From positions 248,001 through 312,000 of the forward strand of contig JAFIEV010000017.1 in assembly GCA_020832305.1 (NCBI GenBank): a DNA stretch of 64,000 bases, given 5' to 3'. A program made the position numbers and the translations under genes. The stretch is from Cyclobacteriaceae bacterium. GTDB lineage: Bacteria > Bacteroidota > Bacteroidia > Cytophagales > Cyclobacteriaceae. The notes below the pieces were generated by a model. The model ran no database searches, was not told where the DNA came from, and saw only the letters and a list, made by a program, of their open reading frames with translations. Below are positions 55,065 to 63,893 of the stretch, one piece after another (the first letter of the stretch is position 1; each line of letters opens with the position of its first letter).

Positions 55065-56279
55065 ATGCAATTACCCAAACTTTCACTGGGCATTGTCAGG
55101 GAAGAAAAAAAACCACAAGATAGCAGAAGTCCTTTTAGTCCTGAACAGGCAGCATCGATAGTCCGCGATTTTTCTATCGATGTATTCTGTGAGACCAGTA
55201 GTGTTCGTTGTTTTTCCGATGAAGAGTATAAACATAAATCTGTTCCGGTTGTGGAAAACCTGGAAAAATGTGATATAATTTTTGGCGTTAAAGAAGTGCC
55301 TGTAAATAATCTCATGGAAGGGAAAACGTATTTTATGTTTTCGCATACCATTAAAAAACAACCTTATAATAAGAAATTATTGCAAGCCATTCTTCAGAAG
55401 AATATCCGTTTGATAGATTATGAATGCCTTACAGATGCCAATGGCACTCGTGTGGTGGCATTTGGATATTGGGCCGGGGTGGTAGGCGCTTACAACGCAC
55501 TTTGGACCTGCGTGAGAAGATACAATACAGGAATTCAATGCCGCCGTGCATATCAGTGCTTTGATCTTGATGACCTGAAGAATGAATTAAAAAAAATCGA
55601 GCTCCCGCCCCTTAAATTCGTGCTAACAGGAGGAGGTCGGGTTGCCGGAGGTGCCCGTGATCTGCTGCAATGGGCAGGAATAAGGGAAGTCTCCCCTGAA
55701 AATTATACCGGCGAAGTATATCAAGAATGTGTATTTGCCAATATTGATGTAGACCGGTATGTGATGCATAGGGAGGGACTTTCTTTTGATTTCAAACACT
55801 TTGAAAAGCATCCTCATGAATACGTTTCTTCTTTTGAGCCCTATGCGCGAAATTCTGATGTTTTGATTTCAGCGGCATATTGGGACCCACAGGCTCCCAG
55901 ACTGTTTGAATTGGAGGAAACTATGAACGACGAATTTAAAATAAAAGTTATTGCAGACATAACCTGTGATATTAATGGTTCTGTGCCAACAACATTACGG
56001 GCTACGACAATACAGGAGCCGGTATTTGATTTTAGCCCAGTCTTTCTTGAAGAACGGAGACCATTTAGCGATCCGGCAAACATTACTGTAATGTCCATTG
56101 ACAATTTACCTAGTGAACTTCCCAGAGACGCTTCTGAGTCATTTGGCGATCAATTGATAGCACATGTACTGCCTGCATTGTTGGGTAAAATTGATCAGGC
56201 CACTCTGAATAAAGCTACCATTGCAGAAAAGGGTAAGCTCACGGAGAAATACCGCTACCTCGAGGACTACGTTTCTTAA
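55065..56279 (+). CDS. Lys1-like NAD-dependent oxidoreductase (alanine dehydrogenase/transhydrogenase N-domain)
   Basis: A 404-aa protein of the saccharopine dehydrogenase (lysine-forming) / alanine dehydrogenase fold. The N-terminal part 'LSLGIVREEKKPQDSRSPFS' holds the conserved Arg-Glu-Lys pattern. 'YFMFSHTIKKQPYNKKLLQA' has the His/Lys pair typical of Lys1-type active sites, and the nucleotide fold is 'KFVLTGGGRVAGGARDLLQW'. 'VIADITCDINGSVPTTLRAT' is the family C-terminal block. Bacteria seldom make lysine by this route, so the true substrate may be another amino-acid adduct. It stands alone as a single-gene unit. Confidence 0.8.
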   Translation: MQLPKLSLGIVREEKKPQDSRSPFSPEQAASIVRDFSIDVFCETSSVRCFSDEEYKHKSVPVVENLEKCDIIFGVKEVPVNNLMEGKTYFMFSHTIKKQPYNKKLLQAILQKNIRLIDYECLTDANGTRVVAFGYWAGVVGAYNALWTCVRRYNTGIQCRRAYQCFDLDDLKNELKKIELPPLKFVLTGGGRVAGGARDLLQWAGIREVSPENYTGEVYQECVFANIDVDRYVMHREGLSFDFKHFEKHPHEYVSSFEPYARNSDVLISAAYWDPQAPRLFELEETMNDEFKIKVIADITCDINGSVPTTLRATTIQEPVFDFSPVFLEERRPFSDPANITVMSIDNLPSELPRDASESFGDQLIAHVLPALLGKIDQATLNKATIAEKGKLTEKYRYLEDYVS

Positions 56280-56404
56280 TCGATAATATAGAATTGCACG
56301 AATTAAATTTTTCGAAGTACCAGATGGTTTTTTATGCAAAACAGATAAAAATCAGGTGCTGAAAACATATTTAAAAAAAGGAATCGTATTTATAAAAAAG
56401 TGCT

Positions 56405-56412
56405 TATATTTG
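56405..56412 (+). promoter_or_regulatory. -7 element of the hexuronate operon promoter
   Basis: TATATTTG, an exact TAnnTTTG. The predicted start of transcription is near 56418, giving a leader of about 200 nt before uxaE. No good TTTG is found at the -33 distance (the sequence there is cgtatttata), which would fit a promoter that needs derepression or activation. Confidence 0.5.
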
Positions 56413-56414
56413 TA

Positions 56415-56430
56415 TTGCAAACGTTTTCAA
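56415..56430 (+). promoter_or_regulatory. LacI-type operator upstream of uxaE
   Basis: TTGCAAACGTTTTCAA, a 16-bp palindrome around a central CG with one mismatched pair (C4/T13). The core AAACGTTT is the classic LacI/GalR-family pattern. It begins 3 nt after the -7 element, so a bound repressor would block the start of transcription. No LacI-family gene is in the window, so the regulator would be encoded elsewhere. The rest of the 341-bp gap (56280-56620) has only a short stem CAATGA / TCATTG at about 56444-56460. Confidence 0.6.
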
Positions 56431-56620
56431 CAATCAAAATGTCAATGATGTTTTCATTGTTGGGCTTTGTTTTTAAGATTAAGAAACGGAATATTGTAAG
56501 ATAGAGACTTCTGCATATTACCGGATAATTTTTATAATTTAAGCGAAGAAATGAAAAGCAAAGGATTCAACAACAGATGCAGGTAATCCATGTAGCTTTG
56601 GCAAACAAAAATTTTTCATC

Positions 56621-57868
56621 ATGCAAATAAACAGATTTTCATTTGGTACAGGCGATCGCTTTGCACACCAAGGTATAGCACAGTTAAAGGCCACCCTAAA
56701 AGCAATGGAATCGGGGTTGGAAATTACCCATGTCTGGAATAAATCAAACCGTGAGCACCTTACGGTTAAGTCCTCACCGGCAGATGTGAGAAGAGAAGCC
56801 GATGAAGCCGTAAAGGCGCTTGGTTATAAAGGGCAATACCTGGTAGATGCAGATCACATCAACATGAATAATGTTGATGCTTTTATAGGGCCATCAGATT
56901 TTTTTACCATCGATGTTGCTGATTACATCGGACAAAAAGCTTCGGAAAAAGACTTGCAAAGTTTTGTGGAGAAGCAAAAATCTTATTTGGGAAAGCTTGA
57001 AATTGAGGGAATATCATCTCAATACATGGTAACCACCGAATTCCTCAGAAATGTTGCAGAGAAGTACCTTTTTGCCGCCCAGGAGGCAGCTCGTATTTAT
57101 CAACATATTGCAGCCTCAAAAGGAGCTGGTAATTTTATTCCTGAAGTTTCAATGGATGAAGTCGATGAACCTCAGACACCCAACGAGCTCTTTTTTATAC
57201 TGGCAGCACTGTCAGAAGCCGGCGTTCCTGTGCAAACCATAGCGCCTAAGTTTACGGGCCGGTTCAACAAAGGGGTAGACTATGTTGGCAATACAGAACA
57301 ATTTGCCAGAGAATTTGAAGAAGACATCCTGGTTATAAACAAAGCAATCAAAGAATTTAATCTGCCGGAAAACCTCAAGCTGAGTGTACATTCTGGTAGT
57401 GATAAATTCTCAATTTACAGACCCATTCGGGAAATAACCCGCAAGCACAATGCCGGTGTACACTTGAAAACCGCCGGTACCACCTGGCTCGAAGAGGCCA
57501 TAGGTTTGGCAGAGGCTGGTGGAGAAGGGGTTGAAATAGTAGTTAGGATTTACGAGCAGGCACTGGAAAGGTTTGAGGAACTTACCAACCCTTACAGAAC
57601 GGTTATTGATATTCACCGCGAGCTTTTACCACATCCGGCTGAAGTTAAAACCTGGGGAGGTATAAAAATTGCCAATACCATCAGGCATGACCAGCATCAC
57701 CCTGACTTTAACTCGGGTTTCAGGCAATTGATGCATTGTGCATACAAACTTGCAGGCGAAATGGGCTCTGAATATACCAATGCATTGTTAAAATACAGTG
57801 AAGTGGTTGGCAGAAATGTAACCTATAATTTGTACGAACGTCATTTAAAGCCCCTTTTTATAGATTGA
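56621..57868 (+). CDS. uxaE: Tagaturonate/fructuronate epimerase (UxaE family)
   Basis: A 415-aa protein of the UxaE (tagaturonate epimerase) family, first worked out in Thermotoga, which interconverts D-tagaturonate and D-fructuronate by C4 epimerisation. The N-terminus reads 'NRFSFGTGDRFAHQGIAQLK'; the metal-site-like blocks are 'YLVDADHINMNNVDAFI' and 'KLSVHSGSDKFSIYRPI', with 'GGIKIANTIRHDQHHPDF' near the C-terminus. Assignment rests on these blocks and on the neighbours (uxaC, KDG kinase, KDPG aldolase). It would join the galacturonate and glucuronate branches in one step. Confidence 0.85.
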   Translation: MQINRFSFGTGDRFAHQGIAQLKATLKAMESGLEITHVWNKSNREHLTVKSSPADVRREADEAVKALGYKGQYLVDADHINMNNVDAFIGPSDFFTIDVADYIGQKASEKDLQSFVEKQKSYLGKLEIEGISSQYMVTTEFLRNVAEKYLFAAQEAARIYQHIAASKGAGNFIPEVSMDEVDEPQTPNELFFILAALSEAGVPVQTIAPKFTGRFNKGVDYVGNTEQFAREFEEDILVINKAIKEFNLPENLKLSVHSGSDKFSIYRPIREITRKHNAGVHLKTAGTTWLEEAIGLAEAGGEGVEIVVRIYEQALERFEELTNPYRTVIDIHRELLPHPAEVKTWGGIKIANTIRHDQHHPDFNSGFRQLMHCAYKLAGEMGSEYTNALLKYSEVVGRNVTYNLYERHLKPLFID

Positions 57869-57931: not shown

Positions 57932-59332
57932 ATGAAAAAATTTCTCGATGATAACTTTTTACTGGAAAGCGACACTGCCGAATACCTGTATCATGAGCAT
58001 GCGGCAAAAATGCCAATCATTGATTATCACTGCCATCTTCCTCCCGATGAAATAGCCGACGATAAATCGTATGAAAATCTCACTCAGATATGGCTTTATG
58101 GAGACCATTATAAATGGAGGGCCATGCGGGCCAATGGTGTAGATGAAAAATATATTACCGGCGATGCCTCTGATTTTGATAAATTTGAAAAATGGGCGGA
58201 AACGGTTCCTTTTACCATGCGTAATCCGCTGTACCACTGGACTCATATGGAGCTTAAGAAGCCCTTTGGCATAGAAAAAATTCTCAATAAAAACACATCT
58301 TCAGAGATTTACCGGGAAGCATCTGACAAACTTCAGGATAAATCTTTCAGCAGTCGGGGATTACTTAATCAGTTTAACGTAAAGGTTGTATGTACTACCG
58401 ATGATCCGGCAGATGAACTGTTACATCACAAGGCACTTGCCAAATCAAAATTTGAGGTAAAAGTACTTCCAACTTTCCGTCCTGATAAAGCCATGGCCGT
58501 TGAACATCCGGTTAATTACAATGCATATCTCGATAAGTTAGCCAAGGTTTCAGATGTAGAAATAAGCAGTTTCAACGATCTTATAAATGCACTGCAAAAA
58601 CGACATGATTATTTTCATAGCATGGGCTGCAGGCTCTCCGACCATGGATTAGAGCAGATTTATGCTGAGGATTTTTATGATCACGAGATAAAAGGTATTT
58701 TTCTCAAAGTTCGCAGCGGTCATACTCTCAGTTTAGAGGAGCAAAGGAAATTTAAATCGGCCATGCTTGTGTATGGAGGGATAATGGATCATGAGAAAGG
58801 GTGGACCCAGCAATTTCACCTGGGAGCACTCAGAAACAACAACAGCCGGATGATAAAAAATCTCGGGCCTGATACAGGCTTTGATTCCATTGGAGATTTC
58901 GACCAGGCAAGGGCGCTGTCGAGATTTTTAGATTCGCTCGATCGTGAAAACCAATTAGCTAAAACTATTCTCTATAACCTCAATCCGTCTGACAATTACC
59001 TTATTGCTACTATGATTGGCAATTTTAATGATGGCTCAGTACCTGGAAAGGTACAATTTGGCTCAGGCTGGTGGTTTTTAGATCAGAAAGAAGGAATGAC
59101 CTGGCAATTAAATGCCTTGTCAAACCTGGGTTTGCTTAGTCGTTTTGTAGGTATGCTCACCGATTCAAGAAGCTTTTTGTCATTTCCGCGTCATGATTAT
59201 TTTCGACGCATACTTTGCAATCTTATAGCACAGGATGTGGAAAAAGGAGAATTGCCCTGGGAAAAAGAGTGGTTGGGTGAGATGGTTGAAAATATAAGCT
59301 ATAACAACGCTAAAAACTTCTTTGAATTTTAA
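57932..59332 (+). CDS. uxaC: Glucuronate/galacturonate isomerase
   Basis: UxaC (466 aa, usual about 470) turns D-glucuronate into D-fructuronate and D-galacturonate into D-tagaturonate. It is of the amidohydrolase-like fold with the metal pair in 'MPIIDYHCHLPPDEIADDK' (HxH, about residues 26-28). 'VVCTTDDPADELLHHKALA' and 'GWTQQFHLGALRNNNSRM' are family blocks, and 'GSGWWFLDQKEGMTWQLNA' lies in the C-terminal part. I chose ATG 57932; the frame runs back to 57905. The stop overlaps the upstream part of the kinase frame but not its likely start. Confidence 0.94.
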   Translation: MKKFLDDNFLLESDTAEYLYHEHAAKMPIIDYHCHLPPDEIADDKSYENLTQIWLYGDHYKWRAMRANGVDEKYITGDASDFDKFEKWAETVPFTMRNPLYHWTHMELKKPFGIEKILNKNTSSEIYREASDKLQDKSFSSRGLLNQFNVKVVCTTDDPADELLHHKALAKSKFEVKVLPTFRPDKAMAVEHPVNYNAYLDKLAKVSDVEISSFNDLINALQKRHDYFHSMGCRLSDHGLEQIYAEDFYDHEIKGIFLKVRSGHTLSLEEQRKFKSAMLVYGGIMDHEKGWTQQFHLGALRNNNSRMIKNLGPDTGFDSIGDFDQARALSRFLDSLDRENQLAKTILYNLNPSDNYLIATMIGNFNDGSVPGKVQFGSGWWFLDQKEGMTWQLNALSNLGLLSRFVGMLTDSRSFLSFPRHDYFRRILCNLIAQDVEKGELPWEKEWLGEMVENISYNNAKNFFEF

Positions 59333-59342
59333 AGAGCAGTCT

Positions 59343-60380
59343 ATGGCACAGAAAATTGTAACATTTGGTGAAATAATGATGCGGCTGGCTACGCCTGGCT
59401 ATTACAGGTTTCATCAGTCTCCTCACCTTGAAATGACCTTTGGCGGCGGTGAAGCCAATGTGGCTGTCTCTTTGGCTAACTTTGGATTAAATACCGCTTT
59501 TGTAAGCCGGTTACCAAATAATGACCTTGGCAAATCGGCTGAGATGGACCTTAAAAAATACGGAGTTGACACATCTCACATCATTTACGGAGGTAAAAGA
59601 CTTGGTATCTACTTTCTGGAAAGTGGTGCCGTTAGCCGGGCAAGTAAGGTAATTTACGATCGGGCTCACTCATCCATATCTGAGATTGAAAAAGGAATGA
59701 TCAACTGGAAGGATGTACTAGAAAATGCTACCTGGTTTCACTGGACAGGTATTACTCCTGCCATTTCAGAAAATGCAGCCACTGTTTGTCTTGAAGCCAT
59801 CGAAACAGCCAGACAACTTGATATAACCGTTTCCTGCGACCTCAATTTTAGAAAAAACCTATGGAAATACGGAAAGAAAGCTTCAGAGGTAATGCCCGAA
59901 TTGGTGGCCGGTTGCGACATTATACTGGGAAATGAAGAAGATGCAGCCATGGTACTTGGCATTCATCCGGAAGGGGTTGACGTAACCAGTGGCCATGTTG
60001 AGGCCGAAGCTTATATATCAGTTTCAGAACAAATCATGAAACAGTTTCCGCAATGTAAAAAAGTAATCACCACACTCAGAGGATCTGTCTCTGCCAGCCA
60101 TAATTCATGGTCGGGTGTGCTTTGGGATGGTCAAAAGCTTTTTGAGGCGCCCACTTATCAAATTACACATATCGTTGACCGGGTAGGCGGGGGGGATTCC
60201 TTTATGGGGGGACTCATTTACGGCTTATTACAATATCCCGGAGATGATCAGAAAGCACTTAATTTTGCTGTGGCAGCTTCATGCCTGAAGCATACCCTCC
60301 ACGGTGATTACAATCAGGTTAATATAGAGGAAGTTGAAAAATTAATGGCAGGAGATGCCTCAGGAAGGGTTTCCAGATAA
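59343..60380 (+). CDS. kdgK: 2-keto-3-deoxygluconate kinase (PfkB family)
   Basis: A 345-aa ribokinase-like sugar kinase. 'EMTFGGGEANVAVSLANFGL' is the N-terminal substrate-binding signature, and 'VDRVGGGDSFMGGLIYGLLQ' is the C-terminal PfkB motif with the catalytic Asp (GGGDSF). 'RKNLWKYGKKASEVM' is common in KDG kinases. In this operon it would make 2-keto-3-deoxy-6-phosphogluconate, which the next gene product cleaves. I chose ATG 59343, 10 nt after uxaC; the frame starts with a TTG at 59322 inside uxaC. Confidence 0.88.
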   Translation: MAQKIVTFGEIMMRLATPGYYRFHQSPHLEMTFGGGEANVAVSLANFGLNTAFVSRLPNNDLGKSAEMDLKKYGVDTSHIIYGGKRLGIYFLESGAVSRASKVIYDRAHSSISEIEKGMINWKDVLENATWFHWTGITPAISENAATVCLEAIETARQLDITVSCDLNFRKNLWKYGKKASEVMPELVAGCDIILGNEEDAAMVLGIHPEGVDVTSGHVEAEAYISVSEQIMKQFPQCKKVITTLRGSVSASHNSWSGVLWDGQKLFEAPTYQITHIVDRVGGGDSFMGGLIYGLLQYPGDDQKALNFAVAASCLKHTLHGDYNQVNIEEVEKLMAGDASGRVSR

Positions 60381-60388
60381 TAAAACCA

Positions 60389-61081
60389 ATGAATATGGCA
60401 AGATTTTCAAGAATTCAGGTTGCATTGAAAATGAAGGAAACGGGAATGGTTCCTGTATTTTATCATAAAGATGTTCAGGTATGCAAAGAAGTTGTGAGGG
60501 CCTGTTATAATGGCGGTGCCAGGGTATTTGAGTTTACCAACAGAGGAGACAGGGCGCACATGGTATTTGATCAGCTCATCACCTGGGCAGAATCAGAAAT
60601 CCCGGATATGATCTTAGGTGTAGGATCCATAGTAGATGCTCCAACTACAGCTTTGTATATTCAACTGGGTGCAAATTTTATCGTTTCACCTGTTTTACAC
60701 GAAGATATGGCAAGAGTTTGCAACCGGAGAAAAATATCCTGGTCGCCGGGCTGTGGTTCCCTTTCAGAAATATCAAAAGCCGAAGAGCTGGGAGCTGAGG
60801 TGGTGAAAATCTTTCCCGGGTCTCAGGTTGGAGGTCCAAAATTTGTAGCTGCAGTATTGGGTCCCTCTCCATGGTCGAGTATCATGCCTACCGGAGGCGT
60901 CACGCCTGAGGCCTCCAATTTAAAGGAGTGGTTTGATGCAGGTGTTCATTGCGTTGGTATGGGCTCGCAGTTGATGATCAAAAAAAGCGATGGTTCTTTC
61001 GATCTTGCTGCTATCGAGATAAAAACACGTGAAGCACTCGAAATCATTGGCCGGTTACAAAATTCCAGATCTTTAAAATAA
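60389..61081 (+). CDS. eda: KDPG aldolase
   Basis: A 230-aa class I aldolase that splits 2-keto-3-deoxy-6-phosphogluconate into pyruvate and glyceraldehyde-3-phosphate. It has the Schiff-base lysine in 'AEVVKIFPGSQVGGPKFV' (about residues 148-165) and the conserved Glu in 'GARVFEFTNRGDRAHMV'. 'SIMPTGGVTPEASNLKEWF' closes the barrel with the phosphate site. It starts 8 nt after kdgK. Either of two nearby Met codons (60389, 60395) could be the start. Confidence 0.93.
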   Translation: MNMARFSRIQVALKMKETGMVPVFYHKDVQVCKEVVRACYNGGARVFEFTNRGDRAHMVFDQLITWAESEIPDMILGVGSIVDAPTTALYIQLGANFIVSPVLHEDMARVCNRRKISWSPGCGSLSEISKAEELGAEVVKIFPGSQVGGPKFVAAVLGPSPWSSIMPTGGVTPEASNLKEWFDAGVHCVGMGSQLMIKKSDGSFDLAAIEIKTREALEIIGRLQNSRSLK

Positions 61082-61087
61082 ATACAT

Positions 61088-62086
61088 ATGTCACTATTCA
61101 GAAGGGTAACCAAATGGAAGATTCACCTGCTTGTTGCCAGTGTTTTTGTGGTTTTTTCATCTTGTGAAAAGTTGCATCAGCCAACCCGTGTTAAGTTAGC
61201 ACATACTTTGAGTCCCGATCATTCGGTGCACAAAGCAATGGTTTTTATGGCCGAGCGCGTATATGAAAAATCCAGAGGCGAAATGGTAATTGATGTTTAC
61301 CACAGTGGTCAGTTGGGTTCAGAAAGCGAATGCCTGGAACTTTTGCAGATTGGCAGCCTGGGAATTACCAAAGTTTCGGCCGCCGTAATGGAGGGCTTTG
61401 CCCCCAGTTACAAGGTACTCGGACTGCCCTATGTTTTTATGAGCAAAGAGCACTCACATGAAGTGCTGGATGGTGAGGTAGGGAGACAAATTTTAGAGGA
61501 TGGAGAAAAGGCATGGCTACGGGGGCTATGTTTTTACGACGCAGGAAGCCGTAGTTTTTATACAAAAAACCGTCCGATCAATCACCCTGATGACCTGCGT
61601 GGTCAAAAGATACGGGTAATGAAAAGTATTATTTCTAATCGTATGATTACTTCACTTGGTGGAGCGCCTATGCCAATATCATGGGGAGAACTATATACAG
61701 CACTTCAACAGGGGGTTGTTGATGGCGCTGAAAATAACCCGCCGAGTTTTTACCTTTCCAAACATTATGAAGTTTGTAAATATTACTCCATCAACGAACA
61801 TACCATGATCCCCGATGTACTGCTCATTAGCACACGCATATGGAATACCCTGAGTGACCAGGAGAAAAAGTGGCTTACCGAGGCGGCAGAAGAGTCAGTG
61901 CCCGTACAAAGAGAACTATGGGAAGAGTCAGAGAGTGACTCATTGAGGGAGCTTGAAAAGGCAGGTGTTGAAATCAGCTACCCCGAGAAAGAGCCATTTG
62001 CCAAAAGAGTAGAAGGTATGTACGATGCGTTTAAAAACGACCCGGTTGTTTATCCATTAATTCAGAAAATTCAAGCACTTCAATAA
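61088..62086 (+). CDS. dctP: TRAP transporter solute-binding lipoprotein (DctP family)
   Basis: A 332-aa periplasmic substrate-binding subunit. Its signal ends 'LLVASVFVVFSSCEKLHQ', a lipobox with Cys near residue 27, so it is anchored rather than free. Family blocks: 'VYHSGQLGSESECLELLQIG', 'YKVLGLPYVFMSKEHSHEVL' and 'DLRGQKIRVMKSIISNRM', in which the Arg normally grips the substrate carboxylate. 'LYTALQQGVVDGAENNP' is the most conserved DctP stretch. In this operon the substrate is probably a hexuronate. It starts 6 nt after the aldolase gene. Confidence 0.93.
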   Translation: MSLFRRVTKWKIHLLVASVFVVFSSCEKLHQPTRVKLAHTLSPDHSVHKAMVFMAERVYEKSRGEMVIDVYHSGQLGSESECLELLQIGSLGITKVSAAVMEGFAPSYKVLGLPYVFMSKEHSHEVLDGEVGRQILEDGEKAWLRGLCFYDAGSRSFYTKNRPINHPDDLRGQKIRVMKSIISNRMITSLGGAPMPISWGELYTALQQGVVDGAENNPPSFYLSKHYEVCKYYSINEHTMIPDVLLISTRIWNTLSDQEKKWLTEAAEESVPVQRELWEESESDSLRELEKAGVEISYPEKEPFAKRVEGMYDAFKNDPVVYPLIQKIQALQ

Positions 62087-62106: not shown

Positions 62107-62574
62107 ATGATGGAAGAGAAAATTAATAAATACCTGGCCAATTTTTTGGTGTTTCTGATGGCTGCCATGGTATTGAATGTATTATTACAGGTAGCGGCCC
62201 GTTTTCTGGGCATTGCAGTTCCTTTTACTGAAGAGTTGGCAGGTTATCTTTTGGTATGGGTTGGTGTTTTGGGAGCAGCCTATGCAACAGGACAAAAATT
62301 ACACCTTGCCATTGATTTGCTCCCCCGGAAATTAGATGAAAAGAAGCAAAAGAAGGTTAATGTCATAGTAAATATTATTGTGATTATCTTCGCGTTTTTT
62401 ACAATGGTCGTCGGTGGGCTAAATCTTGTATATATCACCCTCTCTTTGAAACAATACTCACCGGTAATGGAAATACCTAAAGGGATTATTTACATGGTAA
62501 TACCTTTAAGTGGTTTGCTGATAATCTATTTCAGCATTCTGAACATGAGACAAAATCCCTATAACAAATACTAG
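62107..62574 (+). CDS. dctQ: TRAP transporter small membrane subunit (DctQ family)
   Basis: A 155-aa inner-membrane protein with four hydrophobic segments (about 9-30, 45-62, 82-104, 123-145). 'VPFTEELAGYLLVWVGVLGA' is the DctQ hallmark in TM2. Start is either Met at 62107 or the next codon. It lies between dctP and dctM (gaps of 20 and 14 nt) and completes the three-part, sodium-driven transporter. Confidence 0.9.
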   Translation: MMEEKINKYLANFLVFLMAAMVLNVLLQVAARFLGIAVPFTEELAGYLLVWVGVLGAAYATGQKLHLAIDLLPRKLDEKKQKKVNVIVNIIVIIFAFFTMVVGGLNLVYITLSLKQYSPVMEIPKGIIYMVIPLSGLLIIYFSILNMRQNPYNKY

Positions 62575-62588
62575 AAAAAAGAAATAAG

Positions 62589-63893
62589 ATGGACTACCTT
62601 GAAGTAATAGTACTGGTTGTGAGCTTTGTAGCCTTGTTGGCCATTGGTGTACCCATAGCCTATAGTATAGGGTTATCAACGGTTATCACAATGCTGGTAA
62701 GCATTATGCCAATGCCGGCTTTTACAACCATATCACAAAGAATGGCAACAGGTTTAGACAGTTTTGCCTTGCTGGCCATTCCTTTTTTTATATTGGCAGG
62801 CCAGCTGATGAACAGTGGTGGTATTGCGCATAGACTAATTGAATTTGCCAAAGTTCTGGTGGGCCCTATCCCCGGAGGACTGGCATTTGTCAATATTGTG
62901 GCCAATATGCTTTTTGGGGCTATTAGTGGATCGGCGGCGGCTTCGGCATCTGCCATTGGGGGCTTTATGCATTCGCGCATGGTTAAAGAAGGATATGATG
63001 CGAGTTATGCGGCCGCTGTGAATATAACATCTTCAACTACAGGGCTGATAATCCCTCCCAGTAATGTACTCATCGTTTATGCACTTGCGGCAGGTGGGGT
63101 TGGGGTTTCCATAGGGGCACTTTTTCTGGCAGGTTATCTGCCGGGAATTTTACTTGGTCTGGGCTTAATGGCCGTTACAGGTACGATTGCCGTCAGAAGA
63201 AAATATCCAACGGCCGAGCCGGTTCCTTTTAGAACTGCTGTTGTTAAACTGCTGGACGCTTTCCCAAGTCTATTGTTATTATTTATTGTGATAGGCGGAA
63301 TTGTAGTTGGTATATTTACCGCAACAGAAGCCAGTGCCGTAGCTGTTTTGTACACATTTATTCTAAGTGTTTTTATTTACAAAGAGGTAAAGTTTAAAGA
63401 TCTCAGAGGGATATTTTTAAGTACCATTAATACTACAGCCATAGTAATGCTGCTCATCGCAACTTCTATAGGAATGTCCTGGGTAATGTCTTATGAAAAC
63501 ATTCCGCAAACTGTAAGTGATACGCTTATGAGTTTTGGGGAAAGCAAAGTCACGGTGTTACTTATAATCAATGCCATTCTTCTGTTTGTAGGGATCTTTA
63601 TGGATATGACACCAGCCGTTTTGATTTTTACTCCCATTTTTCTTCCTGTAGTGATGACGCTGGGTCTCGATCCGGTGCATTTTGGCATTATGATGGTGAT
63701 GAACTTGAGTATAGGTTTATGTACACCTCCCGTAGGCAGTATTTTGTTTATTGGTTGCAGTGTTGGTAAGATAGGTATAGAAAAGGTTATTAAACCTTTA
63801 ATACCAATGTATATAGCCATGATCGCTGTGTTGTTAATAGTAACTTATGTGCCATGGATTTCCATGTGGCTACCCAGGGTATTTGGCTTTTAA
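62589..63893 (+). CDS. dctM: TRAP transporter large permease (DctM family)
   Basis: A 434-aa membrane protein with about 11-12 helices. 'FALLAIPFFILAGQLMNSGG' and 'MLFGAISGSAAASASAIGGF' are the N-terminal re-entrant and hinge signatures, and 'SSTTGLIIPPSNVLIVYALA' is the equivalent of the sodium-site loop. The C-terminal repeat has 'MDMTPAVLIFTPIFLPVVM' and 'GLCTPPVGSILFIGCSVG'. It is the last complete gene of the window. The rest, 63894-64000, holds no gene; a promoter-like TTTTTG...TATCTTTA at 63951-63988 is too widely spaced to support. Confidence 0.95.
   Translation: MDYLEVIVLVVSFVALLAIGVPIAYSIGLSTVITMLVSIMPMPAFTTISQRMATGLDSFALLAIPFFILAGQLMNSGGIAHRLIEFAKVLVGPIPGGLAFVNIVANMLFGAISGSAAASASAIGGFMHSRMVKEGYDASYAAAVNITSSTTGLIIPPSNVLIVYALAAGGVGVSIGALFLAGYLPGILLGLGLMAVTGTIAVRRKYPTAEPVPFRTAVVKLLDAFPSLLLLFIVIGGIVVGIFTATEASAVAVLYTFILSVFIYKEVKFKDLRGIFLSTINTTAIVMLLIATSIGMSWVMSYENIPQTVSDTLMSFGESKVTVLLIINAILLFVGIFMDMTPAVLIFTPIFLPVVMTLGLDPVHFGIMMVMNLSIGLCTPPVGSILFIGCSVGKIGIEKVIKPLIPMYIAMIAVLLIVTYVPWISMWLPRVFGF

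Follow-up and report, generated by a model that had tools for sequence, protein, structure and literature searches.

Uronate regulators of the LacI family, namely KdgR, UxaR, UxmR and UxuR, have been predicted in Bacteroides (PMC3878776, PMC4052901). In Algoriphagus marincola HL-49, another LacI-family protein, UxuR2, has been predicted to control two separate galacturonate/glucuronate loci (PMC5507952). According to PMC4052901, an even palindrome with a central CG is recognized by 1173 of 1303 LacI-family regulators, 72% of the surveyed regulators are autoregulated, and more than 75% of the sites are located 140 to 30 bases ahead of the start codon. Promoters of Bacteroidota sigma-A carry a -7 box with the consensus TAnnTTTG (PMC7366714, PMC9723704), and this box is placed at -12 to -5 in Flavobacterium psychrophilum (PMC9723704). 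Here, we analysed a 64,000-nucleotide stretch of a Cyclobacteriaceae genome (hereafter the window), in which a palindrome on the start of a hexuronate operon had been proposed to be a LacI-type operator. The candidate regulator is encoded on another contig, C40. By published description, it resembles the Bacteroides regulators in belonging to the same phylum and to the LacI family, in being associated with glucuronate/galacturonate genes and in having putative palindromic operators. The proposed regulon is also laid out like that of UxuR2, with two loci, one or both of which have a TRAP transporter (PMC5507952); this comparison, too, is of published descriptions. GH109, which is mentioned for the UxuR2 system in PMC5507952, was not seen here. 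No paper naming the window operator or the C40 LacI was found in the open-licence literature searched. The kind of regulation is ordinary and the candidate regulator is new; because LacI hexuronate regulons have been published for Bacteroides and Algoriphagus, it is a new candidate within a known type.

The genes behind the putative operator are arranged in the order uxaE-uxaC-kdgK-eda-dctPQM, all on the + strand and separated by short gaps, and matches to PF, NCBIfam and TIGR families bear out the original prediction of a seven-gene uronate operon downstream of the palindrome. The uxaE gene (56621..57868) encodes a member of the tagaturonate epimerase family (PF16257, E 1.3e-52) and uxaC (57932..59332) a glucuronate isomerase (NF002794, 647 bits against a cut-off of 387). 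The kdgK-like gene (59343..60380) is assigned by similarity and context to the PfkB-family sugar kinases, its top NCBIfam matches falling under their cut-offs; its start and that of uxaC are the first ATG of their ORFs. The KDPG/KHG aldolase gene eda (60389..61081; NF005499, 355 bits against a cut-off of 275) is followed by the TRAP transporter genes dctP for the binding protein (61088..62086, TIGR00787 above cut-off), dctQ for the small permease (62107..62574, PF04290) and dctM for the large permease (62589..63893, TIGR00786 above cut-off). dctM is the final gene of the run, and the next + strand ORF past its end at 63893 has 166 aa. Among loci sharing this gene order, the nearest are from a single genus, g83, of which seven genomes were counted (G082, G492, G512, G526, G542, G554 and G565). 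By their coordinates, G478, G479 and G480 of loci L063, L065 and L066 are identical with G565, G492 and G512, and each genome was counted once. An alanine dehydrogenase/PNT-like gene (PF05222, PF01262) lies upstream of uxaE at 55065-56279, and ORFs with similar first residues also precede uxaE in several g83 relatives.

The putative operator TTGCAAACGTTTTCAA (56415-56430, assigned to neither strand) is a 16-bp palindrome with a central CG and symmetric pairs at seven of eight places, and it agrees with TTGNAAACGTTTNCAA at 14/14 fixed positions. It is an even palindrome of 16-22 bp with a central CG, as described for LacI operators in PMC4052901. Such a near-perfect palindrome had been predicted just past an exact TAnnTTTG, and it is present there: the box TATATTTG (56405-56412, + strand) matches the Bacteroidota sigma-A -7 box, the two are separated by the spacer T-A, and the palindrome begins at the third base past the box. 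No -33 element was recognized by eye ahead of TATATTTG. Because the box is assumed to lie at -12 to -5, as placed in Flavobacterium psychrophilum (PMC9723704), the transcription start is predicted at 56417 on the + strand, and the operator would then span -2 to +14. The site is about 190-198 bases ahead of the uxaE start codon, outside the 140-30 range of PMC4052901. The palindrome had further been described as the only one of its kind; this holds for the AACGTT core, which occurs once in the window, but not for CG-centred 16-mers with at least 7/8 symmetric pairs, of which the window has four (38 with any centre).

The genome has 11 LacI genes, none of which is on the contig of the window (C19), as the original prediction of a regulator outside the window had it. 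The adjacent LacI-family gene that was to be sought was likewise found neither on C19 nor in the inspected ORFs past the operon. The best candidate is located at the end of an operon on C40 (gene, C40:110926-111936; operon, C40:104998-111936), identified with family profiles. Its product has both the LacI helix-turn-helix and the sugar-binding domain expected of such a regulator (PF00356, 53.4 bits, cut-off 27; PF13377, 127.7 bits, cut-off 26.5). The operon encodes, in order, a D-mannonate oxidoreductase of the SDR type (NF006132, 384 bits against a cut-off of 281), a PPi-phosphofructokinase (NF010675), a HAD-like protein, a nickel-dependent putative hexonate epimerase (NF052594, LarA group 18), a 6-phosphogluconate dehydrogenase (gnd, TIGR00873) and the LacI protein. 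The targets of uronate catabolism are therefore present as UxaE, UxaC and Eda in the window and as D-mannonate oxidoreductase on C40. Ahead of the oxidoreductase operon lies the site TTGTTAACGTGTGCAA (C40:104935-104950).

UxaE was found in 10/118 genomes of the family, own genome included, and in 6/390 genomes of the order, two of these being weak partial matches. There are at least 80 uxaE loci (L063-L142), and no uxaE ORF was obtained at 4 of the 80 listed. Orthologues of the C40-type LacI (50-54% identity) occur in 10/390 family genomes, own included, and at E 1e-75 its own genome is the only one of 395 class genomes to have it; in these searches the type is confined to those ten genomes, a point of difference from the Bacteroides regulators. 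A uxaE match was obtained in all ten genomes with the C40-type LacI, although it is fragmented in two assemblies. At G542:C158:5067-6306 (L214, L216), uxaE appears as three matches with an internal stop, which may be an assembly fault. Conversely, four of the ten uxaE-bearing family genomes (118 searched) have the C40-type LacI, and the other six have only weaker LacI matches (~1e-43). The clade of C40-type LacI proteins has a support of 1.000, and the placement of the own-genome protein inside the clade is unsupported (0.117).

In the g83 genomes, the uxaE promoter reads TAnnTTTATGCACACGTGTG (7/7), and a ATGCACACGTGTG[C/T]T[T/A] palindrome, located 60-96 bases ahead of the uxaE start codon, begins at the final base of a TAnnTTTA box, again in all seven. 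A similar operator precedes the regulator's own operon: TTGTTAACGTGTGCAA in the genome of the window, and ATGTTCACGTGTGCAT in 7/7 relatives whose contigs reach the promoter of the oxidoreductase-lacI operon (six g83 genomes and G004), the contigs of G526 and G085 ending before it. In most of these seven genomes, TATATTTG follows 8-11 bases past ATGTTCACGTGTGCAT. Exact matches to TGNNCACGTGTGYNT number 12 in ten whole genomes, and 11 of them are at uxaE or oxidoreductase-lacI promoters; the twelfth, on contig C71 of G492, has no relatable gene nearby, and the reversed control gives three matches in the same genomes. The narrower TGCACACGTGTG gives five matches in 4/18 genomes; four of them are at uxaE, and the fifth is at another place in G480. 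A C40-type site near uxaE is absent from G004, even though the LacI is present, and G085 has one good half only. Conservation ahead of uxaE orthologues, on which the original prediction had been made to depend, is therefore only partial. AAACGTTT itself has no intergenic match of at least 12/14 in the loci of nine relatives and so is not conserved in its exact form, yet a variant palindrome is kept at the same box in 7/7 g83 genomes. This position at the same promoter element, together with the recurrence of the motif ahead of an operon that encodes a LacI regulator, makes a LacI-type operator at the uxaE start the reading with the best support.

The assignment of the window site to the C40 LacI depends on its likeness to the C40 site and to the sites of the relatives. 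Under a symmetric matrix built from 14 sites of relatives, own genome left out, the C40 site ranks first among 383,084 positions of the fetched own-genome DNA, overlaps being counted twice. The window site ranks first in its intergenic region and 5th of 63,985 window positions, and it scores 6.0 bits, compared with 24-26 bits for the relatives' own sites. The C40 site differs from ATGTTCACGTGTGCAT at positions 1, 6 and 16, and the uxaE site differs from ATGCACACGTGTGCTT by six changes, which include all three of the C40 site. Sharing of these three changes was reached by chance in 0.2% of simulations under a simple random-change model; the test depends on the ancestor chosen, and with a GCTA-type reference one of the three is no change. 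Among 12 promoter regions of the 11 LacI genes, the closest 16-mer to the window site is that of the C40 operon (13/16), a likeness reached by 1.3% of 1500 random pieces, or with a probability of about 0.15 when the 12 regions are allowed for. The pattern TTGNNMACGTKNNCAA matches only the window and C40 sites in the genome, compared with two matches of its control, a result that is partly circular because the pattern was built from both sites. In an alignment of upstream regions, the window site does not stand opposite the relatives' site, and it precedes uxaE by about 198 bases, compared with 60-96 in g83. Between the C40 LacI and its g83 counterparts, the recognition helix is almost the same, which does not account for the changed operator bases. 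The motif shared in the relatives and the base changes shared between the two sites point to the C40 LacI as the probable repressor controlling both operons. Taken together, TTGCAAACGTTTTCAA is probably the operator of a LacI repressor, most likely the C40 LacI, which would also regulate its own operon through TTGTTAACGTGTGCAA.

The alternative that survives best is that TTGCAAACGTTTTCAA serves a different LacI protein among the 11 of this genome, for example that of C53, C15 or C23, after a regulator switch. The core of AAACGTTT is generic for the LacI family, and Uxa regulators vary between lineages: in other lineages, LacI proteins are encoded inside or beside uxaE clusters, G098 and G027 have GCAATCG-type sites, and GCAAACGTTTGC precedes the lacI gene of G042, whose product is 48% identical to the C53 protein. 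Within the genome itself, the C15 promoter region has GTGCAAAGGTTTGCAC, which is 12/16 like the window site, whereas the C53 promoter region has no similar 16-mer (9/16). As read from their sequences, the C53 and C15 genes sit among glycan or inositol-like genes, and it is the C40-type motif that the nearest relatives use at the uxaE promoter, which makes such a switch unlikely. The C53 and C88 LacI proteins had been considered because they are the likest to the LacI proteins of other uxaE clusters; the C88-like sites are of the CGTGTNCGNACACG type, unlike that of the window. Palindromes of this type lie upstream of C88-like LacI genes at 9/11 uxaE-adjoining loci (L074, L078, L083, L097, L099, L106, L115, L130 and L142), and GCAATCG-type sites occur at the uxaE clusters of Nafulsella and Pontibacter-like genomes.

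The palindrome could also have arisen by chance in an AT-rich promoter and be bound by no repressor. The window has one match to the motif with up to two mismatches, compared with a shuffle mean of 0.81, so that the motif alone is weak evidence. About 1-4% of simulated intergenic regions would have a comparable site: when the 341-base intergenic region was modelled by 3000 Markov sequences, 3.8% of these contained a CG-centred palindrome with at least 7/8 pairs and 1.2% a match at 12/14 or more fixed positions. The palindrome taken alone is only mildly improbable. The genome search that had been called for (6,475,426 bases, 89 contigs) revealed no enrichment, with 74 matches per strand at up to two mismatches compared with 114 for the reversed control, and TTGNAAACGTTTNCAA was dropped as a genome-wide regulon motif because the control has more matches; the window site is the sole exact match in the genome among the matches listed. 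However, the palindrome touches the predicted start just as the relatives' operator does, and the window and C40 sites have base changes in common, so that a chance origin is rather improbable. It is very improbable that the inverted repeat works at the RNA level, within a leader hairpin controlling the operon after initiation: RNA starting at 56417 has a folding energy of -14.1 kcal/mol (possible hairpin at 56417..56470, + strand; z -2.54; 2/200 shuffles as stable), but the DNA palindrome would begin ahead of the predicted transcript, and a terminator or riboswitch leader was dropped for want of a terminator-like site within 56200-56700 and of an Rfam match near any gathering score.

In the preferred reading, a repressor at the hexuronate promoter, a LacI dimer bound to TTGCAAACGTTTTCAA would occupy the uxaE promoter from about -2 to +14 and keep sigma-A RNA polymerase from initiating. 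A hexuronate or one of its breakdown products would then release the repressor. At its own operon, the C40 LacI would act as a repressor from TTGTTAACGTGTGCAA, which would overlap the -33 region at about -39 to -24. In this genome and in the relatives, the same repressor would be seated at two different promoter places, over the start at uxaE and over the -33 region in the case of its own operon. A single repressor would couple the window operon, for uptake and for making fructuronate, to the fructuronate-reducing operon on C40. UxaC and UxaE would lead to fructuronate, and the C40 oxidoreductase would convert it to mannonate; because this D-mannonate oxidoreductase supplies a step absent from the window operon, the two operons are complementary.

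The further fate of mannonate may differ between the genomes. No match to a mannonate dehydratase was found in the fetched stretches of the window's genome, and the C40 operon is without one. The G512 version of the C40 operon also has a mannonate dehydratase (TIGR00695) and a PfkB kinase, and this second operon would provide the classical route to KDG. The conversion of mannonate to gluconate has been demonstrated for LarA groups 19 and 20, and for group 18 a hexonate substrate is only supposed (PMC7583248). The C40 LarA-type enzyme may convert mannonate to gluconate in the genome of the window. The C40 operon has the appearance of a shunt that takes fructuronate by way of gluconate to the pentose phosphate pathway. 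A C40 LarA-type or Gnd homologue (at least 40% identity) lies within the fetched stretch at 23/80 uxaE loci listed, which suggests that a LarA-type/Gnd shunt is widely tied to UxaE. A wider proposal is that an unlinked repressor joins a split hexuronate pathway, that its operators have drifted together in this lineage and that the operator marks a regulated branch between KDG and the pentose phosphate pathway. The branch is proposed because the C40 operon would route mannonate via gluconate: fructuronate would be reduced to mannonate, epimerized to gluconate by the nickel-dependent LarA group 18 enzyme and fed by way of 6-phosphogluconate dehydrogenase into the pentose phosphate pathway. This proposal is possible but tentative, and we regard it as somewhat doubtful as a whole.

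If the C40 LacI is the repressor, a candidate regulator has been named for an operon with no regulator in the window, and the two sites would form a regulon that is testable in one experiment. Across Bacteroidota, the uxaE clusters appear with three LacI lineages and three operator types, which would represent regulator replacement on one pathway. Furthermore, shared regulation would tie LarA group 18, the substrate of which is only hypothesised in PMC7583248, to the breakdown of hexuronates.
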